64,000 nucleotides of DNA from Buxus sempervirens (Eukaryota; Streptophyta; Magnoliopsida; Buxales; Buxaceae), in NCBI GenBank assembly GCA_947561395.2, contig OX387187.1, forward strand, positions 24,037,829-24,101,828. The letters run 5' to 3'. Positions 10,227 to 63,343 of this stretch are shown here, in pieces. The notes below the pieces were generated by a model. That model did not search any database, was not told the origin of the DNA, and worked only from the letters and a program-made list of their open reading frames with translations. Positions within the stretch are counted from its first letter, which is position 1, and each line of letters opens with the position of its first letter. The translations under genes were made by a program, and so were the position numbers.

Positions 10227-10234
10227 TATTTATA
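10227..10234 (-). promoter_or_regulatory. TATA box of the element A 5' LTR
   Basis: On the minus strand the sequence is TATAAATAGAGATGG. The same box occurs at 45129-45136 in the family-A solo LTR, and the palindrome array ends only about 15 bp upstream in both copies. Confidence 0.75.
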
Positions 10235-10248
10235 GGCAAAATTTCCGT

Positions 10249-11009: not shown

Positions 11010-12355
11010 CAGGGCACAACATGTCTTTTCAAGCACTGTGTATCTAACTTCGAAATTGGTAAATTTCTTGCTTAAGTAGTAGACTGCTTGCTCTTTCCGC
11101 CCTTTCTCATCGTGTTGCCCCAAAACACACCCTACAGCTGTCTCAGAGACTGTCAAATACATAATCAGGGGTCGTCCTGGGACTGGCGGGACCAATGTCG
11201 GTGGACTCATCAGATAAGCCTTGATCTTATTGAACGCCACTTGGCAGTCTTCATTCCAAACCACAGGGTTGTCTTTCTTCAGCAGCTTGAATATGGCTCG
11301 CACACAGGAGTCATCTGCGCGATAAGTCGACTAATGTATTGCAACTTGCCCAGGAACCCTCTGACTTCTTTCTCTGTTGATGGAGGAGGCATCTCCAGAA
11401 TTGCCTTGGCTTTGACAGGGTTTACCTCAATGCCTCGCTTGCCCACTATGAATCTGAGCAATTTTCTTGAAGTAACTCCAAACACGCATTTGTTTGGGTT
11501 GAGCCGGAGCTTATGCTCTCTTAGTCTGTCAAACATTTTTCCCAGGTTCACCATGTGGTCTTCTTCTTCCTTGGACTTCGCTATCATGTCGTCCACATAT
11601 ATTTCCATTTCCTTGTGCATCATGTCGTAGAATATTGAGGTCATTGCACGCTGATACGTAGCACCCGCATTTTTTAGTCCAAATGGCATCACGCGGTAAT
11701 AATAAGTGCCCCAATGCGTGATAAAGGATGTTTTCTCCATATCCCCGGGTGCCATCCTTATCTGATTGTAACCAGAGAACCCATCCATGAAAGAGAACAT
11801 CGAATGTGTTGCTGTATTGTCCACTAGTACATCAATGTGCGGCAATGGGAAGTCGTCCTTCGGACTTTCTCTATTCAGATCTCTGTAGTCAACACACATC
11901 CTGACTTTCCCGTCTTTCTTGGGAACTGGCACAATGTTGGCTAACCACTTCGGATAGTGAGTTACTTGCAAGAACCCGGCGTCCAACTGCTTGGCAGCCT
12001 CTTCCTTGATCTTCAGGGCCCATTCCGGCTTTGTGCGCCTGAGCTTCTGTTTCACAGGTACGGCCTCAAACTTTGTTGGTAACCGATGCACAACCAAGTC
12101 TATGTCTAACCCGGGCATATCCTCATATGACCATGCAAACACGTCAGAATAAGACTTAAGAAAATCAAACATCTGTTTTCTCAATAATGGTGACATCTTT
12201 TTACCAATTTGGAGGATCCTTTGTTGTGCTATTTCACCTATGTCAATTGGCTCTGTTTCCTCAATGTTAGCCTGGGGACCCTTTTCATGCCTTTCCAATG
12301 CAAGTTGTATTTCAAGCGGGATCTCCCATGATTCATTGTCGTCCTCAAGCGTTGT
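11010..12355 (-). pseudogene. pol: Reverse transcriptase of Tat element D, truncated
   Basis: The frame opens with ALERHEKGPQANIEE, then the RT entry region (KQKLRRTKPEWALKIKEE), VRMCVDYRDLNRESPKDDFP, GYNQIRMAPGDMEKTSFIT, and the catalytic YVDD at about 11588-11599. The connection/RNase H start (VVWNEDCQVAFNKIK) is in another frame: a one-base frameshift near 11290 separates 12298-11279 from 11303-11010. The end is cut at 11010 by the LTR of element A. The upstream part of D (protease and gag end) lies at 14218-16112, separated by an Athila fragment. The family is the same as element A by protease similarity. Confidence 0.88.
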
Positions 12356-32119: not shown

Positions 32120-33846
32120 TGTGAGACATGGAAATGTCACTTAAGATGACTTCCAATATCGTCATGCGGGGATCGATAAAAATGAAGAGTTGCCATCATC
32201 CATGTTAAGGTGTGAATGGACACCAAAGGGTTCATAAAAGCCAAATAGAGCCAAAGTAGCTCTAATACCAGGAAAAATCCAGAGATCAGGTAAGCGGAAT
32301 TATTTATGAGTGGGGGAAGGTGTTAGGCACCCCCACTCATCCGTCTAAGACGGTTGCCACATGTTTGCTCATGCTAAGGATTGTTTGCTAATAAAAAGTA
32401 AACACGGGATGCTTAAAATAAGCAAAAATGTATGTGATTATTCCACATGAGTAATCCAATGAACTTGGACTCTCCTTATGGATATATCACTTTAGAACTT
32501 CATGAGTGAAGGAAAATCCAAGTAAAATTTGAAGAAAAAAAAACCGATTCAAGGCAATATGGAAAATTCAGATGATAAGAACTTGAAAGCTTCTATTAAC
32601 CACAAATCACTCAATTTAAATCCAAATCACATGAAACCCAAGCCATTAGAAAGCTGGTTTGAAATAGAGTACTTAGTAAAAAAATCAGCTCAATTCGATT
32701 TAAGACAAGAAAGAAATCCACATCTGTACCTACTGTTGTAAATCAGAAAAAAACGACGAGTAAGCAACTTGGAAACCTTATTCGTGGAGTTTGGCTACAT
32801 AAAAATATATGAAACTTTGCATAGATGGAGTATGTGATGCAATCTTTCAAATGAAATAAACCTCACCCAAATCTCTATCCAGATGTGACTTGTGTGCGCC
32901 TTTGAACAGGCCTTGAAGATCACAGATTAGCTCAGGACTATGCCATTGAGCTGCTCTGAATCAAACAAACACACAGGCCCCAAATCAGATCAAAATCTGT
33001 CGAAACCAGTTGGAATGGAAAGTAGACTCCTCAAGGAAAACACAGAAACTGAAATCACTCAAAACGGATTAAATTTGAGCAAATTGTGCACCATCAAAGC
33101 GGTAAGTTTAGCAATTTAGGCTGAACTGACTTACAGACTTTGAACAAATGGTGTCAAAAATTGGCTCCATAAAAATGAACGAAAATTTCCAGATACAAAC
33201 TAGACATGCCCGTCTATAATTTGTCTTGGGAATCACTCAAAAATTCATCCGGAGGATGAAGTTATAAGCATTCTAAGACAAGCCACAGATGCTGCCCTGC
33301 TTTGAAGATTTTGAAGGAGAAAGCCAAACTAGTGCATGTGTGCAAGTGGATTTGACCAAAGCCATTGGAAGCCATGAAAAACAACCTCGTGAAGCTCTAA
33401 AATTCATTATAAAGCCTAGGATCTCAGATTTCCATATTGAACATGGAAAATCCAAGATCTGTGGAAACCGCATACACAGTGCGGTTTCCACAGAACTGTC
33501 ACTTCATGTGCGGTTTCTATGCAAATTCACCTCAACCGCACATACAGGGCGGTTCCAATTCAGTTAAACTCGTCATGATTGCTGGCGACGTGGCTCAACG
33601 GCCAAAACTTCTAGAAGCCATGTGGCAGCTCACGCAAGAAGCATGAACATTAACCGTGCTGTGTATACGGTTGCAACCGTACATACAGGGCGGTTGAGAC
33701 CAAATTATCAAAAACCGTATATTCAGTGCGGTTAACATCTTTCTTGAGTATTTTTGAGTGTTTGACACATGTCAAGGCTCAAATAAAACATTTAAAGTTC
33801 TTTTTGAGTGTTCTCTCATGTTGAGGTGCAATTTGGGGTGTCTACA
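32120..33846 (-). repeat. 3' LTR of element B (family B)
   Basis: On the minus strand it starts TGTAGACACCCCAAATTGCA and ends CATGTCTCACA, matching the nested solo LTR at 7121-8921. Length is 1727 bp. U3 contains 21-bp palindromes (33466-33733). A TATA-like TTTATAATG lies at 33405-33413. Downstream comes the conserved GTGCCTAACACC-type segment shared with the other copy. Confidence 0.9.
33466..33733. repeat. 21-bp AACCG-N11-CGGTT units in the element B LTR
   Basis: Units with perfect arms occur at 33466-33486, 33534-33554, 33652-33672, 33675-33695 and 33713-33733, with one degenerate unit near 33495-33515. The first is extended to 12-bp arms (GTGGAAACCGCA / TGCGGTTTCCAC). All lie upstream, in LTR orientation, of the TATA-like box. 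Confidence 0.92.
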
Positions 33847-33862
33847 ACTGCCCTCTCTTCGC
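33847..33862 (-). promoter_or_regulatory. Polypurine tract of element B
   Basis: On the minus strand GCGAAGAGAGGGCAGT ends exactly where the LTR begins. This identifies the adjoining LTR as the 3' one and confirms minus orientation. Confidence 0.7.
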
Positions 33863-35450
33863 TGGAATTGGAATCAGTTAACAGCGGAGAGCAAAAAGAC
33901 CTGCAAATTGCGCTTCCTGAGATCATGTCTATTCAATCATAAGTTGCAAGAATTCCAAAACATGATTTTGGAAAAAGAATTTGTTTAGAAGATCTGATGA
34001 AAAGTCCCTAACTTTAAGGGGCAGATCCTCTTCTTGCGTCTCACAAAGCACTCATGGCTATGAAGTGAGATTTGAGCAAATTTTTAAAACAAAAGTTGAT
34101 AGGGTGGTGTTTCTTACAATTTACAACTATACTGGACACGAATCTCTTGAAGGAGAAAGGAAAGAGTTTTGAAAATTCATTTTTTTGGTGCTAACCGTAC
34201 TGAATATGCGGTTTTTTACAATTTCAATACCAACCGCTCTGTCTGTGCGGTTATCTAGGTTGCAATAAAACCGAGACCGCGACCGTGGCTTCTCACTTTA
34301 CCTGTGCAAAACCTTGGAAGTCCAGAGCTTACCCTTTCCTCTTGTGACCGTAGTTTCCTTCCGGTCTTCGATCTTTTCTTCTCCGGCGTCGACACCTCCT
34401 CCGGCGACTTTCGTTTTTTTGGTGATCTCTGTTTCTCTTCTGGTGGACTGTTGCACCTTTCAGTAGGGATTCAATCAATCTCCCCTTTCTGCCGTGACTT
34501 GACCACTGTCTGGCCTGTGAGATTCGGGTGACTGGGACTCTTCCTCAACCATCATTTCAATCCATTGCCATTGGAGCTTCGGTGAGGTCAAGACTCCATT
34601 TTTCTTTGCAAAGCTTTGATTTTAGCTACTACAGGTAAGCGGCCGAACACTTATTCTTCTTGCAAGCAATCAATCCGAACACTTGTGCATGGGTTTTCGT
34701 GGTTAATTGCTGTTACACTTTGCTTTTGGGCATGTTCTGAACTGATTGCTTTTGGGCATGCTCACCCTGTTATGAAGTGCATGTTTTTGTATGCTTGGAA
34801 TGACTCTTGGCTGACTTGATCCCAATTAGCATGCTGTTTACCCCTATTCATGCTTCCATGCTTATTTCAAAATCCGATTGTAGCGAATGCAAATCAATAC
34901 ATGATTTTTACTTGGATTGAACACCTGCAAGCTTGCCTTAGTAATGTCGAACCATTGTGTTCAACTGTATTAAATTTGAGTATATGCCCTTGTACTTTAA
35001 AAGCTTCACCCAAAACACCTAGCATGGATAGGCGTAGACAGCTCCCGTTATTTTGATCATGCCCTGATTGCCCTTAGTGCTGCTTTCTTTTGGTAAACCT
35101 GAAAATGGAACAAGTTTAACCATTTAGGGACTTTCGGCAGTTAGTAACCGCATCTGAATTTCTAAAAATTTAAAAAATTCTCTTTTTGCATATAAGAAGA
35201 ATATATAAGAATTTTGTTTCCTGTATATAATTCTTATATACAACAGAAATAAAGAATTAATAAAGACTAAAAGAAATCAAATCCTGGTTCGGTTAGGAAC
35301 TTTTGGAGTGATTCTTCAGATCTCCGTTTTCCTGCAAATCACATAGAATTGATTAGTCTAAGGGCAAGCAAAATTAACCAAAACATGAAAGCACAAAAAA
35401 ATGACTCCTACTAAAACATAATAAATTTCTCCCTGCAATTGGTTTTGTAG
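33863..35450 (+). promoter_or_regulatory. Promoter and 5' UTR of the antisense PMD gene
   Basis: Two AACCG-N11-CGGTT units at 34193-34213 and 34232-34252 resemble those of the B LTR. They are followed by a pyrimidine-rich GC-balanced leader (about 34270-34634). A CAG-GTAAGC donor at 34634/34635 and a TTTTGTAG acceptor at 35450 would remove an 816-bp 5' UTR intron and place the splice junction right before the ATG at 35451. This structure looks like a cellular-type gene lying in antisense inside the element. No clear TATA box is visible. Confidence 0.55.
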
Positions 35451-38294
35451 ATGGCTCGCACACGTCGTGCTTCCCGGGGTCCTGCAGATGAGCCTTCCTC
35501 TTCGAGGGTTCGGAGGGACCCGGCCGATGTGGCATCTTCTTCTTGGGCCGAGCCGGATCCTGATCTTTCCTCTTCCAGCAGTCTAGAGGTTTCAGATTCC
35601 GATTCTAGAGCATCCAGGGGTTCGCGAGAGTCGACCCCTGAGGTATTCTCTTTTCTTTTCCAAATCCAGGCCTTTTCCTTACACATTTTACCTGACCCCA
35701 TCTTTTTTGCATTTCTAGCCTGCTACCGAGGTTCGAGGTCGCAGGGGAGCTCGCCGCAGAGGTAGGGCAGAGGTCCGGGCGACGCACATTGCCATTCCTG
35801 CGGGGATAGCGGATTAGATCCGAGATACCTCCCTTCTTCATGATCTGAGGACGCACCCTTCAGCGGGCGTCAGGGCTGACATTCCTCTTGTCTACCCGTC
35901 TTCTCATTATCGCGGGAGTTGGGCCCTTTTTACTGAGACAATGGCTGTATGTTCGGCTCCCTTGCATCGAGAGATGGGCCATTTTGGGTTCGGCCCCTTC
36001 ATCACCATCACCGGCGTTCGTCAGGATCAACCTCTGATTGCGGCCATGATGGAGCAGTTTTTTCCTGAGACCCTGAGCTTCCATTTGCCTGATGTGGAGA
36101 TTGGGATTCATCCTTCTGACTTCACTCTCATCACCGGGTTCAGGATGACTGGAGATGTCATCACTGAGTTGGATAGGCCGGCCGATTTGGAGATTGCCGA
36201 GCTTTTAGGATATGGGGAGATTCCAGTGGAGGCATGGGACAGGAGTAGGATTACTCGCATTTCCCGGACCTGGTTGAGGGAGACCTTCCTGGAGAGGGGA
36301 TATAGTACCGTGGCAGCGGAGCATCCCAGCTTCCCAGTGGCCTTCTACTTCCTTTTTCTTTTGATGATGGGGTCGTGCTTCTGCTTGGAGGATACCACCT
36401 CGGTCAGCCCCCATTTCCTGAGTCTTCTCAGGGATCTGCCTCGAGCAAGGGATTATGCCTGGGGCCAGCTTGTCTATGGTACCCTATTGGCGGGCCTGCG
36501 GCGAGTGGTCTTTGGCCTGTCTTCTCCTAGAGGGGCTGGGGTTGGTTGCAGGTTTTTCTGGCCTTTTCTGCAGATATGGATTCATTTCTTTTTTTCTTTT
36601 CTTCTTCCTCTTTTTTCTTTCTTTTCTTCTTTTCTTCTTTTTTCCTTTTCTTTTTGCTTATCTCTCTTTTTTTTTCTTTTTTTTTTCTCTTTTTTTTTTC
36701 ATTTCTTTGCTCAGGTTTATGTAGCCCACTTTCGCCCGATCTCCACATTGCCTGAGGGGACATTCCTTATGGCCCGTAGATGGAGTCAGATTAGGCGCAA
36801 CTCAGAGAAAAGTCGCCCTAGGTCGGCCAGGGCTCACCTGGACAGGACCTTTATGAGAGAGGTAAACACTTTCCTCTTATTCTTATTTTCGTTTTTCCCC
36901 TTATTTGAAAGAATTTGACATTCACCCTTGTTTATTTTTAGCTATCTGTCCCTCGTCTAGATGGCCTTCATGAGGAGTTGGCTTTTTAGCCATTCGTGGA
37001 CGAGGCGTTCGCTCTAGATCAGCGACGTCAGAGGTACTCGTTTATCGAGTAGCTGGGTAGCATATGGTACCTCGGCGAGCACTTCTTCTTCCAGCACATC
37101 GGCGAGCTCCGGATCCTCGTGGCTCCTCCAGATACAACACCTTTCACCCCTCCTGGTCCATTTGACCCAGCTCATTTTGGCGATTGGGAGGCTGGAGATG
37201 CCCTTTTAGCCGAGGGTGACTATGACGCCTGGGTCGGGCAGGTCTCAGTGGGTTGTCTTATGCAGCCCATGCCCGTTCGAGGTGGAGTTACCGAGATCGG
37301 AGGGGTGGTGATCCGCCTATATGATACTACGGTATAAATCTCCTCCTGCTCCACTCTTCTTAGCTTCTTCCTTGTCTGAAGTTATTGATATCATTTTCTT
37401 CTCATTTCAGGAGGCACAGTTAGGGGAGGTCCGAGCTAGGTATGTGGATCCAAAGCGTCAGCTGGATGAGAGAGATGCTGCTATAGCTGAGAGCGACGTC
37501 ATCATCACTGGGCAGGCCGCTCTTATCGCTGATTTGCAGGCTCAGCTGGCCAGTGCTCAGGGCCAGGCGGGGCCTTCAGGAGTTCAAGTCATCCTTCTAT
37601 CCTTTTCAACTTCTGCTTTTTTATCTTTTATATTCTCTGTTTTTGATCGATCTTTCTCTGCTTTCAGGAGGACGTGGCCGCTTCACCATCTAGCTCTCGT
37701 ACCTTGTCTCTTTCCGTAGGGACTGCAGAGATCCCACAGGGAGATCCAGAGATTGCGGCCGAGGCTACTTCTGCTGCCGTTCCTGAGCCAGCTGAGTTGC
37801 CAGAGGTTGCTTCTATGCCTGAGAGTGCTCCTGAGCCTGAGACTGCTCCTAAGGAGGATCCTGTGATTGCCACGGAGCCAGCGGAGGGTGGCTTAGAGGT
37901 TTCTAAGATCCCTGAGGCAGCTGAGCCTGCGAAGGAGGAGGATGTGCCTGATGTAGCCGAGCCTGAGGTGGCAGAGGTGCGTAAGGCAGCAGACCCCATA
38001 GAAATTGATTCATCTCTGGCTGCCAATGATTCTTGGATTCTAGATCTGGTCCCCTTGGTGACAGACACTTCCGTTTCTTGCTTCATGGACCTCTCCCGTG
38101 CCGATCCAGGCGATCCAGTTCCTGCCTCTTCAGTTGAGCCGGCGCCTCCTATAGAGCCAATGGCTTCAGTCGATTTGCCTCCTACTGCTGGTCCTTCCAC
38201 TCTTGCTGACCCGTCTTCTCCTGCTAGGCTGCGTTTCTCAGATCATTATTTTATCCGACAGCGACGGCGGTGGGGATTGACCTGCAGGAGATAG
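35451..38294 (+). pseudogene. Antisense accessory gene 1 of element B: plant mobile domain protein
   Basis: Probable exons: 35451-35642, 35719 to about 36576, about 36717-36861, 36942-37331, 37411-37587 and 37668-38294. Donors and acceptors are GT-AG, except the second intron, whose donor is not clear (TGG-ATTCAT, possibly a mutated GT). A basic, Ser-rich N-terminus precedes a PMD core in exon 2: HFGFGPFITITGVRQDQPLI, FFPETLSFHLPDVEIGIHPS, FTLITGFRMTGDVI and GCRFFWPFLQIW, the last resembling the GCLLLLQLW motif of PMD/MAIN-like proteins. Exon 5 is heptad-like (coiled coil), and exon 6 encodes a tail of P-E-A-rich acidic repeats. In-frame TAGs in exon 2 (35815) and exon 4 (two) show decay. The gene runs opposite to the element. 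Its function is unknown; cellular PMD proteins of the MAIN/MAIL type act in silencing and genome stability. Confidence 0.75.
36590..36715 (+). repeat. Long pyrimidine tract in an intron of the PMD gene
   Basis: About 125 bp of nearly pure C/T on the plus strand ends at TTTGCTCAG. It is best read as an extreme polypyrimidine tract before the acceptor. It keeps an open frame (poly F/S/L) only because of composition. Confidence 0.75.
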
Positions 38295-38520
38295 ACTTAG
38301 ATTAGGATTATTTTCCTTCTATATCTGATATCTGTATATATAAACTGGTGTATGAACTTGCATTTGTATAAAAGAGAAAATTGTTCCTTTTTTGCTTCTT
38401 TTCTTTTATTTTTTTGTCTTTTATTTATGTTTATCATGTTATGATTGTTATACAGGTAACAGGTACCCTTCGGAAACATGACTTATTAAAAGAAATAGAA
38501 AAAAACTGTTTTTGTGCAAA

Positions 38521-38638
38521 AACCGCACATAGAGGGCGGTTGTGCAAGAACCGCACTTGTTCCGCGGTTTTTAAATTCCGCGGAAATGCAACCGCACATT
38601 GGGTGTGGTTCAGGCACAACCATTCTGAGTATGTGGTT
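38521..38638 (+). promoter_or_regulatory. Four 21-bp palindromic units upstream of antisense gene 2
   Basis: Units occupy 38521-38541, 38549-38569, 38590-38610 and 38618-38638; starts are 28, 41 and 28 bp apart. The first two are perfect AACCG-N11-CGGTT. The last is AACCA-N11-TGGTT, both arms changed together so that pairing is kept. They lie 126-244 bp before the ATG at 38765, a promoter-like position, and match the units in the B LTR. Confidence 0.85.
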
Positions 38639-38764
38639 TTGCCCTCTTGTAATTTTAAAGCCGCGATCACGGGTAGAACGTCACTTTGACGTATTGCTTA
38701 GGTCAGAAACCCCTTTTTCGATGATTCTCTCTTCTAGCTGCCTTTAATCCACTTTTGACCATTA

Positions 38765-40417
38765 ATGGCCTCTGATTCAGCTTCTGCACCTTCTTCATCC
38801 TCTGTACCTAAAATATCAACCTCCAGACCAAACATTAGATCCAAACCTCCAAATTTGACAAGGTACGCCATTGTAGATGCCTGCTATGAGAAATGGGTTG
38901 ACTCAATGACCCATCAAGATAAAATAGATTGGGACTTTACCAATCTAGGCCATATCCTCTCACTCCCAAAGGTTCCCCTAAAATGGGAAATCATAGAGGC
39001 ATTGATTGGGCATTGGGAACCCCAATTAAACCTTTTCATGTTTGGGGAGAGGGAGATGACCCCTATGGTGAAGGAGGTTGAAACGATCCTCAATATTAGG
39101 TTCTCCCAGAAGGTAGTCAACCCACCACTCAAACCAAGCTTCAAAAAGGAAGCCTCTACTTTTTTGGGAATTGGAAAGAAAGAGTTAGGGGAAGCTGACG
39201 CCTTATTGACCCTATCAAAGTCCTTTTTGACTGAAAAGCTATTGAATAGCTCGAACCAGTCGGCTCAGTTCAATGCTTTGACCTTGATAGTGGTCAATCA
39301 ACTTTTATTCCCCCGAGATGATAGCAAGGTTGATTTATCCCTCATTTCAGTCATCTGCCAAGTTAGGGAGTGCGAGAGGCTTGCCCCTATGATTCTGGCT
39401 GAAATATACCAGGCCTTGACTGACTGCTATCATCGGAAGAAGAAAAGTTTCCTCGCCTGCGCCCCTATCCTTTAGGTAAAATCTGAACCTCTTTGTTGAA
39501 TTACAGTTTTTATTGTACAATTGAAATTTTCTAACTTGAAAAAGCTTCCCTTTTCTTTGCAACTCTAGCTTTTGGATCATCTGTCCCAGGTGGAGGAGAT
39601 AGACAGGCACTTTGCCCGGAACATGGATGTTCTCACTTTGATGAACAACCGGGGGTGTCCTTCTATCCCAGGAGGCAAGAGGGGGTGGTTTGTCTTCTTG
39701 GGGACGTTCCAGGATGACTAGGTGAGATGGCCTGGTACTTATTAGCCTTCTACCGAGACAGTGATCAGCTTCCCTGACCGGAATTTTGCCGCGCTTATGG
39801 GCTTGAGGTCTGCCCTGCTCTATTTGCCTTTGAGAGTCATCCGGCAGTTCAGAGAGGAGGCTCAAGGGATTCTGGTAACTCAGGGCTATGAGGAGTTCAT
39901 TGGTCCTCTCACATCGGCCACCATGGGGCTATGCTATCGCCTAGTGAAGGATTGGTCTCATGCCTGCTTCTTGAGTGGTCTTGTCTTCTCCAAACTGCAT
40001 GAGAAGGACTACCTCTTCTGGATTAGGGAGTAGACATAGAGTTGCGCTTCTATACCAGTGGATCCTCCTGCTGTCCCATGTCCTACTTATGCGGATCTCC
40101 TGGAGACTGAGAGGGCTTCTCATAGGCGGCTCCAGCACATATGGATAGAGGAAGCCCGAGCTATGAGACTGGAGAAGGAAGACTTGGATAGACGGCTCGC
40201 AGAGCAGATACGGGCCCGTCCCTTCGAGGTTAGAGCCGCATGGTGTAGGCATGATGAGACCATGGCCAGGCTCAAAGATATGAGGACCAGATAGACCCTC
40301 TCAGATGATGTCATTTCTTTCCTAAGTGACCCGGATGCAGAGGGGGCTGAGAGGCTAGTCACGGTTCAGGCGGCTTGGATCAAAGAGCTCGAGGAGAGGC
40401 TAGGGGATAGAGATTAG
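38765..40417 (+). pseudogene. Antisense accessory gene 2 of element B: DUF7745/PMD-like protein
   Basis: Exon 1 (38765-39477) encodes ILSLPKVPLKWEIIEALIGH, LFMFGEREMTPMVKEVETIL, STFLGIGKKEL, LTLIVVNQLLFPRDDSK, LAPMILAEIYQALT and CAPIL. A GTAAAAT donor at 39478 and a CTCTAG acceptor near 39569 define an intron. The second exon continues with LLDHLSQVEEIDRHFA, ALLYLPLRVIRQFREEAQGI and a C-terminal coiled coil (about 40058-40417). Conserved blocks match ORF1 of element A in the same order. In-frame stops include the TAG at the end of exon 1 (Trp in the homologue) and others near 39720, 39753, 40031, 40037 and 40292. The gene follows gene 1 on the same strand, 470 bp apart. Confidence 0.78.
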
Positions 40418-41480
40418 CCCCTTTACTATATAGTTTTTTCTTTTTTACACTTTTGTACAAAGAGAAACTCCATTAGCGGAAAGATAAATAATACAAAATA
40501 GATTTTTATACTATTGGCCTCAGAACTCTCATATGCTTGTAAAAACTTACAGTTTAATGAAAAGTTATTGATTTCTTATCATCGGCCAAAATATAATTTT
40601 TCTTTTTTGTTTGTTGTGTTGTAAATTGGTCCATGATGCTTTAATCCCATATAATTTGATGAATTAAAGTAAGTTGGGCAAAAAGGTATTTTAAATAATA
40701 AAGAAGAAGCCATTCCATCAACCTTTGAACCTTTAGACTCATCCCCAAATTTCATTCCCATTTCCAGGGATGATACCAATGCTTACTGGTTCAGTCCTGT
40801 GCTGAAAATCTGCTCAACTCAAATCTGCTGTTCAAAACCGTGCATTCAAACCGGTTTGGCGAAAACCGCCTTTGATATGCGGTTGCCTGACCATTCTGCC
40901 GAAACCGTATGAATAGTGCAGTTTGGACCAATCTGTACCCAAAGTGCAGTTTTTGACCCCTTTCTTTCTGTTTCTTTTTTCTTTTGTTCTTTTTTTCTTT
41001 TGCCTTTTTCTGGCCAATACTGCCCCTAGTGCCTGTTACGATTTTCATTAGGGCCGACTCATTTGTTCCGTCATTGCCAATCCAACACCGTGAGTTGAAG
41101 GAATGCACCGAGATCACCGAGGGCTTGATCAATAGGATGAAATGAAGGTTAGGTTTAGTTTATGAAAGAAAGTTATTATAGGCTCAAAATTTTGATATTT
41201 TGAAATAGGACAACTGGGCTTACAGTTATGATGGATATGACCTCAATTCCCAAAATTTGCCCTCTTTCTCTCTTTTTGTATTTGGCTTTCATTTGCCACC
41301 TTATTTTTCTTCTTTTCTTTTTCTTTATTTTTGCCCCTATTGGCTTTGCCCCAGTTGCAACTGTAAGCCCCAGTTTGGGTTCTTAAAACACGAACAGGCT
41401 CAACTTGGTTAAGCTAGGGATTTTAAAATTTTTGAGGGATAAAGAAAAATGGCCCCGGATCATTTCCTAGTGATATTCTT
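40418..41480. other. Spacer between accessory gene 2 and the end of pol in element B
   Basis: No domain-bearing frame is visible. Three more 21-bp units occur at 40836-40856, 40864-40884 and 40903-40923, the last with one arm mismatch, spaced 28 and 39 bp. The rest is T-rich sequence with short C/T runs and possible polyadenylation regions for the two convergent transcription units. Confidence 0.75.
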
Positions 41481-44339
41481 TCAAGGGAAATATCGCTTAA
41501 CTGCGTTAGAGTTTATTGGCTCAGGAAAGTCCTTCCCATCCATTTCTGATAAGATGAGAGCGCCTCCTGATAGGACCTTCTTCACCATATAAGGTCCTTC
41601 CCAATTTGGCTTAAACTTTCCACGAGGGTCCTCCAGAAATGGTAATATTTTCCTTAAAACCAAATTACCCACTTGGAAAGCTCTGGGCTTCACCTTCTTA
41701 TTATAGGCCCTGGCCATTCTCTTCTGGTACAATTGGCCGTGACAAAGCGCATTCAGACGCTTTTCCTCTATTAAGTTGAGTTGCTCATATCTAGACTGAA
41801 CCTATTCAGCTTCTTCAAGTTCTGTTTCCATAAGCACTCTCAGTGATGGGATTTCCACTTCAACAGGTAAGACTGCCTTCGTTCCATACACCAAGGAATA
41901 CGGCGTTGCCCCCGTAGAAGTTCAGATTGAGGTTCTGTAAGCATGGAGAGCAAATGGTAGCATTTTGTGCCAATCTCTATAACTCACCACCATTTTTCGA
42001 ATTATTTTCTTTATGTTCTTATTTGTTGCCTCTACTGCCCCATTCATCTTTGGCCTGTACGGGGCTGACTTGTGATGAGTTATCTGAAACTGCTCACACA
42101 TCCTCTTCATATCCTTGTTCTTAATATTTGAAGCATTGTCTGAAACTATGGCATTTGGCAATCCATAGCGACAAATTATGTTGTGCTTCAGAAACTTAAG
42201 AACATGGTTTCCTGTGATATTTGCATATGAGGCAGCTTCAACCCACTTTGTGAAATAATCAATTGCCACGAGGATGAATCGGTGTCCATTTGACGATTTT
42301 GGAGAAATCATCCCAATGACATCAATACCCCACATAGAGAAAGGCCATGATGAGGTCTTGCTGTGTAGCTCACTTGGCGGTGCATGCTTATTATCAGCAT
42401 ATATTTGGTACAAATGGCACCTCTTAATATGTACGCAACAATTGTGCTCCATTGTGGACCAATAATATCTCAATCGCAGTATTTTCCTTGCGAGCATGTG
42501 TCCATTCATATGCAGCCCACAAACTCCTCCATGCACTATTTCTATCATTCTTTCTGCTTCAACCTTGGTGACGCATCTGAGTAGGACATTATTGTAAGAT
42601 ATCTTGTATAACTGCCCACCACTTAGGAGGAACTGCCCTGCTAACCTCTGTATCGTTCTTTTTTCAGTGGAAGTAGCACCCTCTTGGAAACCCCGATTAT
42701 TCAAGAAATTCTTGATATCTTGAAACCATGGTATTTCTGTTTCTTGCGCTCCTTCTAGAACAAGACAGTAAGCTGGCTTGTCTCTGACCTCAATTTCAAG
42801 TGGTTGGATGTCTACCCCTTCTGGAATGCTAACCATCGAAGCCAATGTTGCCAAGGCATCTACAAATTGATTCTTAGACCTTGGCATATAGCTAAAAGAA
42901 ATTCGAGTAAATTTGGTACTTACTTCGTCCAAATACTGGTGATATGGGATCAACTTGTGATCTTTGGTTTTCCATTCACCAGTTGTTTGGAAGATGATAA
43001 GACTCGAATCCCCATATACGTCAAGTTCTTGAACATCATGATCTAGAGCAGCCTATAATCCAATTATACATGCTTCATACTCTGCGATGTTGTTCGTGCA
43101 CTGAAACCTCAACTTCACTACGATTGGGATATGCGAACCATCCGGCCTCACTAATACTACGCTGATCCCATTTCCATTCATATTTGCAGCCCCATCGAAG
43201 AACATCTGCTAGGAGTCTTCATTTTCCTCTTCTTCAGCAAATAAGATAGCCTCATCAGGGAAATTTGTCTTAAGAGGCTGATAATCTGGTAACGGATGCT
43301 CAGCTAGATGATTAGCAATTGCCTGACCATTGATTGCTTTCTGAGTGATGTAGGTTAGGTCAAATTCTGAAAGCAAAAGCTGCCATTTCGCCATTCTACC
43401 AGTTAAAGCTGGCTTTTCAAACAAATACTTTAAAGGATCCATCCTTGAAATCAGCAAAGTTGAATAACTTAAGAAATAGTGCCTAAGCCTCTAAGTTGCC
43501 CAGACCAAAGCACAGCAAGTCTTTTCCAAAGGCGAATATCTCGTCTCATAATCTGTGAACTTCTTGCACAAATAGTAGATAGCCTTTTCTTTTCTGCTTG
43601 TTTCATCATGCTACCCCAATACATATCCCATTGATGTTTCTAAAACCGATAGATACAGAATCAAAGGTTTTCCTGGAGTTAGCGGTACTAGAACAGGTGG
43701 ATTTAACAGATAATCCTTTATTTTATCGAATGCTTGCTGGCAATCCTCATTCCATATGGTTGGGTTGGTCTTCCTTAGAAGCTTAAAGATCAGTTCGCAA
43801 ATAGCAGTGAGTTGTGCTATGAACCGGCTAATGTACTGAATTCTTCCCAGAAAACCCCTAACTTCTTTTTCTGTTTTAGGAAATGGCATCTCGATGATTG
43901 CCTTTGTTTTAGACGGGTCTATCTCAATCCCTCTTCTGCTTACAATGAATCCCAATAATTTCCCTGACGTGGCTCCAAAAACACACTTTGTTGGATTAAG
44001 CCTTAAACTGTATTTCCTTAAACGGTCAAATACCATCTTTAGGTTAATCAAGTGGTCATCTTCTTCACAAGACTTGGCAATCATGTCATCTACATAGACC
44101 TCCATTTCTTTGTGGATCATGTCATGAAAAATGGCCGTCATGGCTTGCTGATACGTTGCCCCGGCATTCTTTAGTCCAAAGGGCATGACTGTGTAATGGA
44201 AAGTTCCCCAAGCCGTGATAAAAGCGGTTTTCTCTTGATCTTCCTTTGCAATCTTGATTTGGTTATATCTGGAAAAGCCGTCCATAAATGAGAACAAGCT
44301 GTGCACTGATGTGTTATCAACCAAGATGTTAATGTGTGG
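41481..44339 (-). pseudogene. pol: Pol of element B, C-terminal part: RT end, RNase H, second RNase H, integrase
   Basis: One frame with several stops. RT: GYNQ-type SRYNQIKIAKEDQEK, FGLKNAGATYQQAM and YVDD (44085-44096). RNase H follows from about 43700 (LILYLSVLETSMGYVLG, LEKTCCALVWAT, KYLFEKPALTGRMAKW). A second, archaeal-type RNase H (43208-42870; FFDGAANMNG, NNIAEYEACI, YGDSSLI, FVDALATLAS) is diagnostic of the Tat lineage. Integrase (42600-41922) has an HHCC region in which the last Cys is Tyr (CHLYQ), then WGIDVIG, VSDNASN and NGAVEATNKN, keeping D, D and E. The C-terminal end is FKPNWEGPYMVKKV. Stops include Gln, Arg, Trp and Lys codons turned to TAG/TGA. The N-terminal RT part is at 46758-47211. 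Confidence 0.92.
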
Positions 44340-44899
44340 TGTAGACACCTGACTTTTGCACCCCCAAAATGAAGAAAAATGAAAAGTCAAACTAAAAGTC
44401 AAACACTGAGGGGGTCAAAAATTGACTTTTTGATTCAAGTAAATTTGGCCATCAAACTTCATCTCATTGAAAAGAGCATTTCAACACGGTTCCAATGCAA
44501 CTGAATTTGCTGGAATCGGAGTCCAAATGAGAAAGATATGAGTTGGTCAAACTTTTGGGGAGCGAAAAGTTGACTTTTTACTCGACCCCAATTCAGTTTC
44601 CAAACTTGATCCCAATGGATAGGTGGTTCCGAGCCGGTTCCAACGACACTAAGTTTGCTGAAATCGAACATCGGACAAAGAAGTTATGAGCAGTTGAAGT
44701 TTCAGAAAAACTGCCCATATGGCAAAAAGGCAGCAAAAATGGAATAAACCAATAAAATAAATAAGATAAAGGTGTTTAATAATATTTTAATAAAGAGAAT
44801 CTTGCTTTTTAATAAAATAATCGGAAAAATCGAATAAAAATCTTGCAAAAAACCAAATTGAATAAAGGTTTGAAGTCCAAACATTTTAAAAACGTGCTG

Positions 44900-45114
44900 G
44901 ACCGTATTTCAATTACAGGCAGGGCATGCCCGTATTTCAAATACGGGCAAGCTTCTGGAAGAAGACACGCATCGCTTGTACGGCGGGACACGCGTCCCGT
45001 ATGGCCGATTTGCGAGATTTGCAAATGTGCGTTTTTCGCCCGTATTTGAATTACGGGCAAGGCATGCCCGTACTTCAAGTACGGGCAAGGCATGCCTGTA
45101 TTTGAAATACGGGC
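44900..45114 (+). repeat. Phased 21-bp palindromes in the family-A solo LTR
   Basis: Units start at 44900, 44928, 45038, 45066 and 45094, all 21 bp, with starts 28, 110, 28 and 28 bp apart: the same layout as in the element A LTR. The unit at 45066 has both arms changed (TACTT and AAGTA instead of TATTT and AAATA), keeping a perfect palindrome. Confidence 0.92.
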
Positions 45115-45128
45115 ACAAAAATTTTGCC

Positions 45129-45136
45129 TATAAATA
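45129..45136 (+). promoter_or_regulatory. TATA box of the family-A solo LTR
   Basis: TATAAATAGAGAGG lies 15 bp after the last palindrome, as in the element A LTR. Confidence 0.75.
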
Positions 45137-46757
45137 GAGAGGCCACCCCCCCTCATTTCAACAAGCCCTCTCTCCTGGCCACCTCCCCTGCCCTCCTGAA
45201 GTTTGCCTCGACCAAATGCTGCCCTCATGCTGTCACTCTAGCATCCAATCTCTTCTTTTTCCTAAACTACCCCTAGGTTAGTTAAACCATGCCAATATCA
45301 TGCAAAAATCCTCTCTAGTCTAACTCTCAAACCCATCACCCAGCCAAACCCTTTTTCTAACAACTTTGAAATATTTGGAGGACGCGGAAGCGCTGCCCAA
45401 ATCTTCGGAGAACCACAAATCCAACAAAACAAACTAATTATATTGTAAGTATACTATCCTCTCTAATTTGAATAAATTTTGCTTATTTCATTCTCTTCTT
45501 TACTCATTTTTTTTATCACAATACCACTAACTTGTTTGCTGTTTTGGATGCCATGAGAGGAGCCATGAGAGTTTAGAATTAAAGTATTAACCTTTGTTGG
45601 AAATGAGGAAAAGAAAGTGTTTTTCTTGATTAAAAAAATGGTCATCTCTAACCCTTTAATGTGGAAGGATTAAGCCTTGCTTAAGGATACGTGAGATTCC
45701 CTGTAAAACTCCCCTTTTCCATGCTAAAAATGAACTGGAGATTATTCATGCAAGGCAGTGTTTCTTCAAGAAACACTAAAAGAAAAGGAAGATGGTCATT
45801 TGGGCCAAATGAGGCAAATGAAGCCCCTGGAAGAACCTGCAATCTTTTCTAAAGCTACCAAAACATCTGAGAAGGCCACGGAACTGATCCCAGGAAGAGC
45901 CGGCACCAAATATGCAAAACTGGAGGCCCCCGTAAACTCAGAACGGTCCAGTCTGGACCGTGTTTGCTTCACGGGCAAGGCAAACCGGATTCCATCTACG
46001 GGCGACGGTGGACCGTATAGAAAATACGGGCTAATGTAAAAGCAATATGAAAAATGTAGTTTTTCGGCCTGGTTGGATCTATTCCAACTTGAACCGGCCC
46101 GAACCAGCCCCTTTAAACAATTTGGGCTATCTTAAGCCCATCTTTGGACCGTGGGCCCAAATGGGCCCACCAAGGCTTCCTTTTGGCCCACATGTGTGGT
46201 CCACCTTAGACTGGCCCAAACCAAGCCTGTTTTCAATAAACAGGCCCGGGCCCTTTGACCCTTGGCTAATGGGCCAAATCCAAGCCCAAATAAAGAATGT
46301 AAATGAATAAAATTTAAATAACCAAATAAGGGTTATCCAATAACCCTACTGGGCCCTAAGCCCAACCATGGCAGCCCACGGGTCTTCCAACAGGACCCGG
46401 GTCCGACCCACTCCACTAAATAAAAAGATAAAATCAAAGTAAAAGGGACCCACACCTTTAGAGGGCCCCGCCAGACCCAATAAACAGCATGTTGGTCTAG
46501 GAAGGGTGAGCTTGACTCAAAAACCAGGGAGACCCGAGGGACCCGTCAAACCGACGGGGCGGGCCGGGGTGTCTTAGGACTTCCTCGGACGTAACCGAGG
46601 ACTTAGCTAGAACTCTGAAAAGCTGCAGACCAGACTTAGACCCGGATAGGGCAAAACCGTGTCTGCCTGCACTCTCAGGCAGTGGCGACTCCGAATGTCC
46701 CGAGGCACGCATAGAAAGTGCGCCCGGTGTGCGATCAAGGATTCGTAGGTGCGCACA

Positions 46758-47211
46758 CGTGGCAAGGGAAAATCGTCCTTCGGGCTTGCCTTATTCAAGT
46801 CTCTGTAATCTACACACATCCTGACTTTTCCATCATTCTTTGGAACCGGGACTATATTAGCTAACCAATCAGGGTATGTAGAAACCGCCAAAAATCCAGC
46901 TTGAAACTGCTTCACCACTTCATCCTTGACTTTTAAAGTCCACTCAGGCTTCAACCTTCTCAATTTCTGCTTAATAGGCTTTACTCCTAGCAGGATTGGC
47001 AGCTTGTGTACAACCATGTCTGTATCCAACCCTGGCATATCCCGATAAGACCATGTGAACACGTCCTTGTAATCGGCCAAGAACTGGGACATTTCCTTCT
47101 GCTACATATCAGACAAGCATGCACCAATCTTTACAATTTTTGGGTCCTCTTCGGTTCCCAGGTTTACGGAGATGGTTTCTTCAATATTAGGTTGAATACC
47201 CTTTTCGTGAC
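46758..47211 (-). pseudogene. pol: Pol of element B, N-terminal RT part
   Basis: The frame continues from ...YQLERH (54260) with EKGIQPNIEE, then FTWSYRDMPGLDTDMVVHKL, KQKLRRLKPEWTLKVKDE, WLANIVPVPKNDGKVRMCVD and YRDLNKASPKDDFPLP, where the family-A solo LTR intervenes. One in-frame TAG lies near 47101. It is bounded on the right by a family-C solo LTR with TSD GTGAC. Confidence 0.92.
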
Positions 47212-57857: not shown

Positions 57858-58428
57858 TGTAGCACCTCATTTTTGCGCTCCCAGAAGAGCTGGAAATGCA
57901 AACCTTGGACAGAAAGTCAAACCTGAGGAGTCGAAATTTGACCTTTTGATCAAGTGAAAATTGGCCACCCCGCTTTATACCATTGGATAGGGAATCCCGA
58001 CACGGTTCCAACGCAACTAAGTTTGCTGGAATCGGAGTCCGGATGAGGGTTCAGCGGGCCGGTCAATCTTAAAGGAGAGCCGAAAGTTGACTTTTCCTCT
58101 AACCCCTTGCCAAGTGCTTAGCCCTATGTCATTGGATAGAGGGCTCCGATACGAGTCTAACGCAATTGAGTTTGCTCAAATCGGAGTTCGGATGAAGGAG
58201 ATATGAGCTGTCAAAGTTTCCGAGTAGTAAAACCGGAAACTGCACACGTGGCGCAGGAACTGCACACGTGGCAGCCAACGCAGCAAAATATCTCGGGGAC
58301 TAAATCTTAAATATCCAAAAATCTTAGGGACTAAACCAAAATTCGCAGGGGGCAATCCGTAGATATCCAAAAGTGTCAAATCGGTCGAATCGGTCAAGTC
58401 GAGGGGCAAATCCGTAATTTTTTGATTT

Positions 58429-58673
58429 GTATCCGGCATTTAATGCCAGATACACTTGCTCCCCTTCATATCCGGACTCAAATGTCGGATACAAAGATTT
58501 GATTGGCGAGATTCGCACCGATTCTCCGACAGATTCGCGGCGGCATTAATTTTGGCAATAATTGTGTTTTGTATCCGGCATTTAATGCCGGATACAAACA
58601 ACCCTTAGTGTATCTGGCCTCCAAAGCCGGATACACATAGGACATAGTGTATCCAGCCTTCAAGGCCGGATAC
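58429..58673 (+). repeat. 25-bp CCGG palindromes upstream of TATA in family-C U3
   Basis: Units start at 58429, 58468, 58571, 58610 and 58649, exactly 39 bp apart within each group. The unit at 58571-58595 is a perfect GTATCCGG-N9-CCGGATAC palindrome. The array ends 14 bp before the TATA box. Confidence 0.93.
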
Positions 58674-58686
58674 ATTAAGTTTTTTT

Positions 58687-58694
58687 TATAAAAA
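58687..58694 (+). promoter_or_regulatory. TATA box of the family-C LTR
   Basis: TATAAAAA in a T-rich context is followed by a GGGGGCAGCAGCC segment that looks like the start of R. Confidence 0.65.
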
Positions 58695-60052
58695 GGGGGC
58701 AGCAGCCCCCTTTCAAAGGGTTGGCTCATTCCACTCTTCTTGGACCTCCTTGCCCCACTTTGTCTCATCCGAACCTTCCCTCCCTAGCACCCATTGGCCT
58801 CCACCACCTTCCTAACCACCCCAAGGCAGCTCCACCCCTTCTCCTCCTTCTTCATCTTCATGGTCACCCCAACAAGAGAAGGCCTTTTGCTGTAGTTGCT
58901 GGAGAGGAAGTCTCCAGCCCTTATTCCACCTCCAAAAGATGCCTCCAGCTTGCTCAAAGACTTGAGAGCCACCAGCTACTCTTGCCTCCATACAACCCCC
59001 CACCATCACTCAAGACCACCACACCTCTTGCATTCCTCTTCTTCTCCATCTTCATACTAAACCAAGGAGAGACTGGTTGCTGTTGGTGCAAGAAGAAGCA
59101 ACTTCTAGCTGCTGTCCATCATCAAAGAAGGGTTCCCACCTTGCTTCGGAGTGCAAGAACACCCAGGTGAGCATCTCTAGTACTTTGTATTACCCATACA
59201 TTAAAATAGGAATTTTCTAAGGTGTTTGCCAAAGTTTGTCTTCTCCCCTAGCATGAACCTGTTTGAGGACTTCCTTTACATATGTTTTCTTTTGTTTCTT
59301 TGGTAACATGGAGGTCTCTAAAGGTGAGAGAGACCCCATGCATGACCCATGAAGAGATGGGGAACTTGGCCACACCATTTGAGGCCAACAAGGTTGCGGT
59401 TTTGGGATCCTTGGAGATTCAGTAGGGGGGAGCTTGTTCCCCCATAATTTCATCCAATGTACCCCCATATATACCCCCTTCTCCTCCCCTTCTCTGAATT
59501 TTTGCCAGGTTTAAGCATGAGTCTTGGGTTCATATATCGCTAAGAATCGTAGGAAATGCATATTAGATCATTGCTCTTCTCATTGTTCTTCTTGCATGTG
59601 TGTTTTGTTGCCACTTTGTCTTTCTTGCATGCATATGGATCTGATGGTTTTCGGCAACCGTCTCCTTGCTATTTTCTTTTGCTGGAAAAGGCCATCACAT
59701 GAGGATGCATGCCCATGCCAATATTAACTTATATTCTCTATGTATGGTGGGGGGTCTCCTTGTCATGTGCCTGTTATTTTCCGCTTAGACGTTATTGTTT
59801 TCGGGCAGCCATTCCAACAAGTCCCCCTCCTTTTAGGCTTGCTGTTTGGTGTTTGTTTTTATGTGCATAAATGCCTACAGCATGGTTTCACTTTGGTTGG
59901 TTTAGGCATGCATGCCATATTAACTTTCTGAATTTTCTTTGGAGATTGGGATACGTGTTTCCTTTCTCCAGCTAGTTGCTATTGGAAAGCCCATGAGCAT
60001 GATCCCCTTTACCCCTTTTTAAGTGTACTCTGAAAGCTTCAAAAACCTACTC

Positions 60053-60425
60053 CAGGTGCTGTCATGGACAGCAGCAAGCCTTTGTTGCTTGCTGCTGTTC
60101 CAGGACCTCCAGCAGACCCACCTACGTGCCTAGGCATCCCCCAAGCCTGGCCTCTTAACCCACTGTCATGCTCCCTAACCCCTTTTCCATTAACCCAAGT
60201 AAGTTGCTGCTGGGGACAGCAGTAAACCCCCACTGTTTGCTGCTGTCCCAGCAGGTTGGAAGGCCTAAAATCATCCCCAAGACTAGCTGCCATAGCACCT
60301 ATCGGCAAGCCCTCATCTTTAGGGAAGCATGCCCCCCATCACCCCTCCATTCCCTTTGCCATGACCCAAATGAGTGGCTGCTGGGGACAGCAGCAAACCC
60401 TCATCATTTGCTGATGTCCCAGCAG
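60053..60425 (+). repeat. Long inverted-repeat units in a family-C LTR
   Basis: Units at 60207-60254 and 60378-60425 are inverted repeats of CTGCTGGGGACAGCAG with its complement and arms of about 20 bp. A degenerate copy lies at 60053-60117. Spacing is about 160-170 bp. Related CAGCAG sequence occurs in the minus-strand C LTRs. Confidence 0.75.
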
Positions 60426-61065
60426 ATTTGGAGTCCCAGAATCACCCCAGTGTTGACCCACAATCAAGTCCCGTATTTATGCCAACTTCCATGGTCTTTT
60501 TGGTTAGGAATGCATCCTTGCCTTCTCAAGTTACTTGTTGCTCATGAACTTAAGAATGCATGAGCCCATCACCCCTCAACCCAACCCATTGAGTACTAGA
60601 CATGCATGCACCCCTTCACTTGATCTCTGGGCATTCACCATTCCCATCAGCATGCTTAAAGCCCACCTAAGGTCTCTCATTTCACTGCTGTCCCTTCTTC
60701 TTTACTGTTGCTATGCCATGATTTGTAGCATGTTCAATTTTGTGTATAATATGCGTAGTGCAAGACCTTGTTGTGGGGCTTTCATGGCCCATCGAATACT
60801 GAAGCGTGACCACCGAAGTAGGGGTACTAAGGCCCCTACACATTGCTGGAATTGCCGGAGAGAAATGAGAGGGGCAGCGGCCCCAATGTCTTCCTCTCCA
60901 CCTCTTGTTTTGGTGAGAACCCCCCAAAAGGGATTAAAGTGGATTCCTTCCCAAACTTGAACCAATGTGAGCCCCACCCAGGGGCCCACATGACTTGTGA
61001 AAACCCCTAGGAACCCCCTTGAGACAACCCCAAGGGCCTAACTCCGAAAAAAGGTATTCTTAAGG

Positions 61066-61129
61066 TGATCCGGCAACTCAGGCCGGATCACCTAGGGCCT
61101 GTGTGTATCCGGCATCTAAGGCCGGATAC
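61066..61129 (+). repeat. Two CCGG palindromes near the 3' part of the truncated C LTR
   Basis: Units start at 61066 and 61105, again 39 bp apart. The conserved GGGTTTCCGG-type palindrome follows at 61212-61236. They correspond to the array at 49077-49225. Confidence 0.88.
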
Positions 61130-61838
61130 ATGATAAAAATACAGTTTTTATGATTTTTGTGTTCCTTGCCGAATTTTCATGTCATTTTTAGTAAAACCAA
61201 ATAAACCAACAGGGTTTCCGGGCCATCCAGAAACCCAACTTGGGACTTGGACCCTCGGTTCAACTCGGAATACCCGTGGGCCTTCCAACGGGGCCCACAA
61301 GCCTATGAATCCAAAAGCATGCAAATGAGGAAATTGAGTAAAAATGAACAAGTTGAATCGAGCGGGCCAAACCCAATGCGGCCCACCCGAACCTTGTTAT
61401 GTGTAATGAATATATGAATTGCATGGTTTGGCCGAGACCAAGGGCTAGGGCCTATCAGGCCCGCCAAAGCCCACTAAAGGTTCTGCGGGCAGTCAAACTT
61501 AAGGGAAGGCCAAAAGTTGACTTTTTTTTGGGAATCCGTGCCAAGTGTTTAGCCCCATGTCATTAAATAGAGGGCTCCGATACGAGTTTAACACAATTGA
61601 GTTTGCTCAAATCGGAGTTCGGATGAAGGAGATATGATCTGTCGAAGTTTCCAGGTAGCAAAAGCCGAAAACTGCACACGTGGCGCAGGAACTGCACACG
61701 TGGCAGCCAACGCAGCAAAATATCTCAGGGACTAAATCTTAAATATAAAAATTTTGTACGGGCGATCCGTAGATATAAAAAAGGGTCAAATCGGTCGAAT
61801 CGGTCAAGTCGAAGGGCAAATCTGTAATTTTTCGATTT

Positions 61839-62084
61839 GTATCCGGTCACATATACCGGATACACTGCCTATCCTTCATGGCCGGACTTGAAGACCGGAT
61901 ACATAAAGATATTCGCGCGAAATTCGTGCCACTTGGCCGACAGATTCGCGGCGGCATTAAATTTTGAAATGATTGAGTCATGTATCCGGCCTGAGTTGCC
62001 GGATACAAAGGGGATCTAGTGTATCCGGACTACAAGTCCGGATACGAATAGGACTTAGTGTATCCGGCCTGAGTTGCCAGATAC
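61839..62084 (+). repeat. 39-bp phased CCGG palindromes in the second C LTR, U3
   Basis: Units start at 61839, 61878, 61982, 62021 and 62060; spacing within groups is exactly 39 bp, matching the first copy. Centres (N9) differ among units and between the two LTRs. Confidence 0.92.
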
Positions 62085-62969
62085 ATTAAGTTGCCTACAT
62101 AAAGCAAAACAGCAGTTCATTTCGGGGTTGGCTTTTGGTTTTTTGTTTCCCAGCTCTCTTCTCTCACCTACCCACCCCGAATCCCTCCTCTTTTACCTCT
62201 CTCAACCCTCTTTCACCTCCAAGTATAGATCAAAGCCATCCCAGCCTTGGCCTTCTTCTCCCTTTCCTTTTTCTGGTGGAAGCAAGAAGGAAGCACTGCT
62301 GTAGCTGAGGAAAAAAGGAGTTCCAGCTGCTGTCCAGCCCCAAGGAGGTACCCATACTTTGCTCAAGAGGCCAAGAACCCTCAGGTATTGTTCCTTAACA
62401 CATTGTATTCAACATATATTAAATCTAGATTTTTTTGAAAATGTATGCTTCCATTTGTTTTCTTGTTCTTCATGGCCTTGTTTTAGCATGATCCATGCAT
62501 ATATTTGGTGTTCCTTCCATGGCACTAAGCCACCTATAGCATGACACCCACGTAGGGATCGTTTAAGAGGCAAAAGTCCTGTCTCATATGCATTCTAATA
62601 TGCTGTATTTCCTGTTTGGAGATTTAGCTTAAGGTATTTTGGGGAGGAGCATGTTCCTCCTTGGTGTGTAATCAAATGTATCCCCATGATAAGCCCCCTC
62701 CTTTCTCCTTTCTCCAAGATTTTACTTCTCTAATGCATGACTCATTCCAATATCTTATTGCTGTTTTTTTGTGTGCAAGCATGCTCCATCACCCCCAAAC
62801 CCCCATTGGTTTTTGCTAGAAGAGATCCAAAAGGAGAAGCCAAGTGTGGCTTCTCCCAAACCTGAACATACGTGGGCTCATCCAGGAGCCCACGAGACTC
62901 TTAAGATGTTCCTGGGAACCCCAGGAAGTCATCCCAAGTGGCAGAATACCCAAAATGGCCATTTCAGGG

Positions 62970-63213: not shown

Positions 63214-63343
63214 AACTTGGAACCCGGACCGATCGTTCCAACTTGGTACAATAGTGGGCCTTCCAACGGGGCCCACCAAGCCCAATGAACTCCAAAGCAT
63301 GCTAATTAAATAAATCTAAGTAAAAAGAACCAATCTAATCGGA

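Follow-up and report, generated by a model that had tools for sequence, protein, structure and literature searches.

Why does one 21-bp palindromic unit recur in the long terminal repeat (LTR) of a retrotransposon and beside the genes that it carries in antisense? The question is raised by a 64,000-nucleotide stretch of the Buxus sempervirens genome (GCA_947561395.2, contig OX387187.1, 24,037,829 to 24,101,828, forward strand), hereafter the window. Its element B is, judged by its sequence, a minus-strand Tat-type Ty3 retrotransposon with antisense plant mobile domain (PMD) and DUF7745 genes. A first-pass annotation had reported fourteen units of the form AACCG-N11-CGGTT in B and had suggested that the LTR and the accessory genes are co-regulated through them, possibly by an element-encoded or host dimeric factor. 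We observe the sites, their exact spacing, their conservation among copies, covariation between their half-sites and a joint switch of LTR and accessory sites in a sister element, C.

The units of element B

Both antisense genes sit between pol and the 3' LTR. Gene 1 (35451..38294, plus strand; exon limits not fixed) matches the plant mobile domain PF10536 (1.1e-14), and gene 2 (38765..40417, plus strand), which has in-frame stops in the window copy, is DUF7745/PMD-like (DUF7745, 3.1e-20; PMD, 7.7e-9). The 3' LTR (32121..33846, minus strand) begins TGTAGACACCCC at 33846, preceded by a purine-rich tract; its end near 32121 was read from alignment with a solo LTR at 7121-8921.

How many units are there, and where? 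The window holds 11 exact AACCG-N11-CGGTT units, all inside 33466-40884, and 100 dinucleotide shuffles held none. Three near units with one or two altered arm letters (38590, 38618 and 40903) bring the total to 14, and these stand at the places annotated. Pattern scanning and centre orientation gave five exact units in the U3 region of the LTR (33466..33486, 33534..33554, 33652..33672, 33675..33695 and 33713..33733; no unit is assigned a strand), the third with its centre reversed. Pattern scanning and copy comparison gave two exact units 5' of gene 1 (34193..34213 and 34232..34252) and two 5' of gene 2 (38521..38541 and 38549..38569). Also 5' of gene 1 is a GACCG-N11-CGGTC unit (34346..34366) shared with L011, a second B copy; also 5' of gene 2 are a unit with one CpG transition (38590..38610) and a unit with two (38618..38638). 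Three more (40836, 40864 and 40903) occupy 40836..40923, between gene 2 and the pol end. When up to two mismatches are allowed, the window has 45 sites against 13.8 expected; the loose matches elsewhere are in part chance and in part units of other families.

Among the 14 units, arm identity is 95% and 7-bp flank identity 26-29%. The centres had been said to vary freely. They do not: best oriented, they read approximately YAYAYWCAGKG, scoring 141 against a maximum of 59.5 in 200 shuffles, and they occur in both orientations. All 14 are exactly 21 bp long, as annotated, but this is not so for a further U3 unit seen in the U3 alignment (33494..33515, one arm CpG-decayed in the window copy), which is 22 bp (N12) in 9 of 12 aligned rows, the window included, and 21 bp in 3, by a by-eye count. 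Was unit 38618 changed in both arms so as to preserve pairing? All arm deviations among the 14 units (4 of 4) are CpG transitions, and units 38590 and 38618 are intact in L011. Hence, 38618 is a case of double CpG decay, and we reject compensatory evolution there.

Nor can the window LTR stand as the promoter it was taken for. Relative to another copy, L008, it has lost about 690 bp at a junction at 33460..33465; the missing core promoter region adjoins the last unit and includes the TATA box, which the 4 other LTR copies measured have 199 bp beyond their last unit. A 37-bp palindrome (33458-33494) coincides with the junction.

Units are kept in other copies of B

Is the spacing special to these units? 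Genome-wide, AACCG-N11-CGGTT occurs at 19,195 sites (backward control, 1,691), not all of them B's, since the sites listed include other families; the one-base-shorter AACCG-N10-CGGTT occurs at 184 (backward control, 1,467). The N11 form thus outnumbers the shorter one about 100-fold, and with the empty shuffles of the window this argues that it is not equally frequent in shuffled DNA.

Do other B copies carry units at the same places? A protein search of the genome (676.5 Mb) with the gene-2 N-terminal part as query yielded 5,708 candidates, and the 150 scored among them all had 85-100% identity; the loci that we examined are the best-scoring 30 of these 150, the window's own included. At least one exact unit lies within 420 bp 5' of the gene-2 ATG at 30 of 30 loci (73 sites, at four fixed places). 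Exact units also occur in the 1.5 kb 3' of the gene-2 piece at 25 of the 30 (50 sites), and inside the 708-bp coding piece at none. The units are thus kept at gene 2 rather than missing from other copies. In these loci, 5' of gene 2, agreement with the column majority is 0.976 for non-CpG arm letters, 0.917 for flanks and 0.897 for centres; for CpG arm letters it is 0.910, with 39 of 43 changes being C>T or G>A. The gene-2 piece is free of stops at 17 of 30 loci, and the median ratio of nonsynonymous to synonymous substitution rates over 135 pairs of these is 0.16, somewhat biased by the picking of open frames. We conclude that gene 2 is under purifying selection.

L011 is 83-88% identical to the window across the gene-1 and gene-2 promoters, and two of its gene-1 units have lost a CpG. 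Agreement with the window in the 12 aligned U3 rows is 0.931 for the arms and 0.766 for the rest of U3, the latter figure being lowered by three rows (L009, L010 and L012) that are non-homologous in about the first 130 columns. These three are B-type LTRs whose first ~130 bp are unrelated to B's and which retain the unit-bearing part; possibly they are recombinants. Seven ATCCGG sites among the 30 B loci fall in two loci (the L042:2935-3073 region and L023), far from the gene-2 promoter, and look like units of other insertions.

Two half-sites covary around a fixed core

The core of the unit, CCG-N11-CGG, occurs 49 times in the window against 2.6 expected. Other CCG/CGG spacings up to 36 give at most 14 sites, and spacing 37, an inter-unit distance, gives 26. 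The 49 sites are mainly of AACCG (B), ATCCGG (F3 family) and GCCCGTA/GACCGTA (F2 family and a solo LTR) types: three LTR families in the window share CCG-N11-CGG with family-specific flanks. The F2 and F3 LTRs are themselves homologous: their 5' ends share 66% identity across 418 alignment columns. Each has two plus three units before its TATA box, of differing types, and identity drops to 33-44% at the units.

How far does the symmetry reach? We compared 141 distinct CCG-N11-CGG 21-mers from the window and fetched loci with 1000 shuffles. Positions 0/22, 1/21, 2/20, 6/16 and 7/15 pair above every shuffle; -1/23, 8/14 and 10/12 do not, and 9/13 pairs below expectation. Control spacings had just 7-22 distinct sites each, and in one of them (d = 13) the outermost place showed pairing of 0.80. 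Within B, palindrome extension past 21 bp is not above cross-unit pairing (p 0.32). On our reading, each unit would comprise two inverted 7-bp half-sites (NNCCGNN) with a 7-bp gap between them. Because the two half-sites covary, the suggestion of recognition by a dimeric factor gains support.

LTR and accessory sites switched together in element C

Does the site version differ among relatives of B, and does it differ at every place at once? Element C (C1:3441494-3464309) is 85% identical to B in the integrase part, 84% in protease and 88% in reverse transcriptase; identity is 62% in gag, 63% in gene 2 and 54% in gene 1. Its two LTRs are identical across 2,271 bp, and C is therefore recent. Each LTR has four ATCCGG-N9-CCGGAT units, and the 5' leader has three and one AACCGG-CCGGTT variant. 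Three ATCCGG units and a decayed one lie 131-268 bp 5' of gene 2, followed shortly by TATAAA, and two lie about 1.6 kb 5' of the gene-1 PMD match. The units of B 5' of gene 2 and gene 1 stand at corresponding distances. Over the stretches examined, B has 11 AACCG units and 0 ATCCGG units, and C has 16 ATCCGG units and 1 AACCG unit, the leader variant.

Since the LTR, gene-1 and gene-2 promoters are mutually non-homologous, a matched switch across all of them points to one protein reading all. A joint switch at several places implies a putative trans-acting dimer matched to its sites. The suggestion that shared units co-regulate the LTR and the accessory genes is upheld in part: fixed-position units at all 30 gene-2 loci and C's matched switch, neither of them available to the first-pass annotation, give it strong support, and free centres, compensation at 38618 and the core promoter of the window's LTR have dropped out of the case.

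A proposed element-encoded reader of the units

What would read the units? We propose that a symmetric, probably dimeric, DNA-binding protein recognizes the two inverted 7-bp half-sites of each unit. Every lineage would hold one site version in its LTR and 5' of its accessory genes, and one matching protein would act on LTR and accessory promoters alike. The candidate is encoded by the element: the gene 1 PMD protein, the gene 2 DUF7745 protein or both. It may keep the LTR and accessory promoters active or clear of silencing marks, like VANC for VANDAL transposons. The element PMD/DUF7745 proteins are the best candidates because selection conserves them, because they diverge strongly between B and C, because VANC is a functional analogue and because PMD proteins of the host have been linked with a promoter motif. 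Binding, dimerisation, the binder's identity and activation or anti-silencing are what we infer. For the whole, lineage-specific sites read by one matching, element-encoded, VANC-like dimeric protein, we consider truth and error about equally probable.

A broader version is more tentative, and we give it rather less than even credence. Tat-type Ty3 elements may practise self-recognition, in which an element PMD/DUF7745 protein would read a lineage-private 21-bp dyad present both in the LTR and at every accessory promoter; protein and code would change together at lineage splits, which would let several families, with thousands of copies, live side by side without activating one another. If this is true, sequence-specific self-recognition would extend beyond DNA transposons to the LTR retrotransposons that form the main part of most plant genomes. 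The units offer a concrete candidate DNA target, with natural variants (AACCG, ATCCGG and GCCCGTA), for transposon-encoded PMD proteins. In the passages of a 2017 study that deal with it, PMD function is called undetermined and an anti-silencing role is proposed for transposable element-encoded PMD (PMC5418596).

Several observations weigh against an element-encoded reader. The co-switch rests on one element, C, compared with B, and gag is as diverged between the two as gene 2. Kinship among sites weakens the shuffle test of covariation, and many loci were chosen by the AACCG pattern. The 3' cluster at 40836-40923 is at no recognized promoter. Unit type and PMD kinship show no simple match. 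F3 and C are both ATCCGG-type, yet the sense PMD of the F3 element, encoded past the window's right edge, is 31% identical to B gene 2. The N-terminal parts of the F3 PMD and that of element A, an F2-family element, are 84% identical (over 193 amino acids, with 61% over a further 82), yet their unit types differ. Athila-like LTRs in the window bear other 21-bp dyads. Finally, PMD/DUF7745 appears here to lack a known DNA-binding fold: the gene-2 N-terminal model (3 sequences) had a mean predicted local distance difference test score (pLDDT) of 37.7 and was not used for a fold search, and a PDB profile search gave no relative at E <= 1.

A protein database search returned 348 candidates, none at E <= 1e-5, and in viral_contigs neither gene 2 nor a Ty3 reverse transcriptase had a match.

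Alternative explanations

Could the host supply the reader instead? One or more host transcription factors reading CCG/CGG half-sites would then drive LTR and accessory promoters, and lineages would drift or shift between factors, for example in escaping small-RNA silencing. That unit type does not track PMD kinship fits this, as do the dyads in U3s of other LTRs in the window and the palindromic CGG-CCG motifs described, in the pertinent passages, for Sireviruses, another superfamily (PMC2829016). However, C's switch takes the LTR and both accessory promoters together, and the CCG-N11-CGG geometry is constant while the flanks covary, for which one co-evolving protein is simpler. Because of the gag divergence, the mismatches with PMD kinship and the lack of a DNA-binding fold among the search results, a host factor keeps about a third of our belief.

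An element PMD protein might also work in the opposite sense, as a repressor or copy-number control or as a rival of host MAIN/MAIL1-type PMD complexes at the units. Host MAIN and MAIL1 do work in silencing and in the expression of genes sharing a promoter motif, according to the relevant parts of two reports (PMC7156037, PMC9899485), and we regard this alternative as unlikely. Still less probable is that the units have no function and that recombination or gene conversion, acting between the LTR and the internal region, has spread them within the element. Short dispersed repeats can homogenise, and unit repeat distances recur (28 bp in F2, 39 bp in F3, both in B), but the flanks of B's units are unrelated, arms are better conserved than flanks at the 30 loci, the coding piece has no unit and positions are fixed across copies. 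That the units are RNA or DNA hairpins, or small-RNA sources or targets, is the most improbable proposal: every unit can fold (-2.2 to -10.0 kcal/mol) and 21 nucleotides is a plant small interfering RNA length, but B unit centres pair less than cross-unit controls (0.31 versus 0.43), an Rfam scan of the window gave 0 matches at the gathering score, and it is half-site spacing, not stem length, that is conserved.

Comparison with known systems

Palindromic Sirevirus motifs, called RM, are the closest precedent. As the sections on them in Bousios et al. (2010, PMC2829016) have it, a palindromic CGG-CCG motif occurs in the LTR of 12 of 13 motif-bearing Sireviruses and before the ENV-like gene in 9. 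Like the units here, the RM is palindromic with a CGG/CCG core, varies in sequence by family, and is repeated many times, both in the upper half of the 3' LTR and ahead of an accessory gene; the B units, too, stand in U3 and before an accessory gene. Unlike B, Sireviruses are Ty1/copia elements, and their RMs are 10-20 bp with a short spacer or none. Those sections report neither a cognate protein nor a matched switch in a sister element (PMC2829016). Since Sirevirus motifs are already in print, the kind is known, and the co-switch with accessory promoters is the new part.

The domain order of B is that of Ty3, with integrase after RNase H, and a second RNase H between the two is a Tat feature. 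On the minus strand, the first part of the reverse transcriptase (46607..47101) and its second part with the first RNase H (43611..44414, RT_RNaseH_2) are followed by RVT_3, the second RNase H, and integrase (41922..43052), with H2C2 (below cutoff) and rve after RVT_3. The reverse transcriptase is split by an inserted F2-family LTR.

In noncoding DNA of the element, VANC binds short motifs that are specific to the family, several clusters per element, and the motif differs between related VANDAL families together with the encoded protein, as described in parts of two studies (PMC5735166, PMC10398659). The units here are likewise family-specific clusters in noncoding DNA. VANC-type motifs share one orientation, whereas the units have palindromic arms and centres facing both ways. 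DUF1985, the mark of VANC homology, matched none of the gene-1, gene-2 and element-A pieces at E <= 10. VANDALs, unlike B, are DNA transposons.

Extra PMD genes are also familiar from Tat-type Ty3 elements: an additional PMD open reading frame (ORF) is present in 57% of Ogre elements (Neumann et al. 2019, PMC6317226), and genes 1 and 2 give B the same feature. The section on the Ogre ORFs reports no cis-motifs, unlike B. The antisense genes of B, lying between pol and the 3' LTR, recall the TRP28 ORFs of Retand elements, which the pertinent part of a 2025 report, where U3 palindromes are not mentioned, proposes to be regulatory and DNA-binding; those ORFs have another domain, Transposase_28 (PMC11963269). 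That domain had no match where genes 1 and 2 were scanned, in the first part of gene 2 and in gene 1 outside its middle. The literature searched, with most subscription papers outside it, gave no earlier description of units like these in a Ty3 element with PMD. HTLV-1 Tax is an element-encoded regulator acting on repeated 21-bp U3 sites, with sequences and proteins unrelated to B's.

Other LTRs and dyads in the window

The F2-family LTR in the B reverse transcriptase (44340..46757, plus strand) has GCCCGTA-N7-TACGGGC units at 44900-45114 and related ones at 45928-46031. Element A, of the same family, has its 5' LTR at 6820..11010 (minus strand), with units at 9367-9470 and 10249-10463 and a nested solo LTR inside. 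This solo LTR (7121..8921, plus strand; target-site duplication TGGGG) is related to B's LTR and carries GACCGTA/TACGGTC-type units at 7279-7327. The PMD/DUF7745 gene of element A (4082..5530, minus strand) lies in sense orientation between the 5' LTR and gag and is homologous to gene 2 (34% identity in the N-terminal part, E 3.9e-40). Its relatives numbered 5,371 candidates; the 150 scored were 93-100% identical, many with a 498-amino-acid open frame. The leader of element A, between gag and the PMD gene, has 46-bp tandem repeats with AGCCNNACGGCT-like dyads at 2854-3123.

The F3-family LTR region (57858..63341, plus strand) has an LTR start at 57858 and a second copy from 61479; its units, ATCCGGC-N7-GCCGGAT, are 39 bp apart. 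In the corresponding part of U3, two further related LTRs on the minus strand (starts at 51411 and 54253) have a different make-up, and this module therefore turns over fast. The first has three different long dyads in U3 (50543-50636), while ATCCGG-type units are found at 49081-49218; the second has direct repeats and no dyads (53440-53700).

CGTTCG-N9-CGAACG dyads, 21 bp long and without a CCG core, lie at 13764-13969, 23434-23762 and 29068-29397, in the U3 of Athila-like LTRs (23189-24858 and 28822-30480) and in a third copy. Tandem 20-34-bp palindromes (AGCGGCGGTAATTA..) at 21784-22291, near a Transposase_21 gene (17239-18522), are presumably CACTA subterminal repeats.

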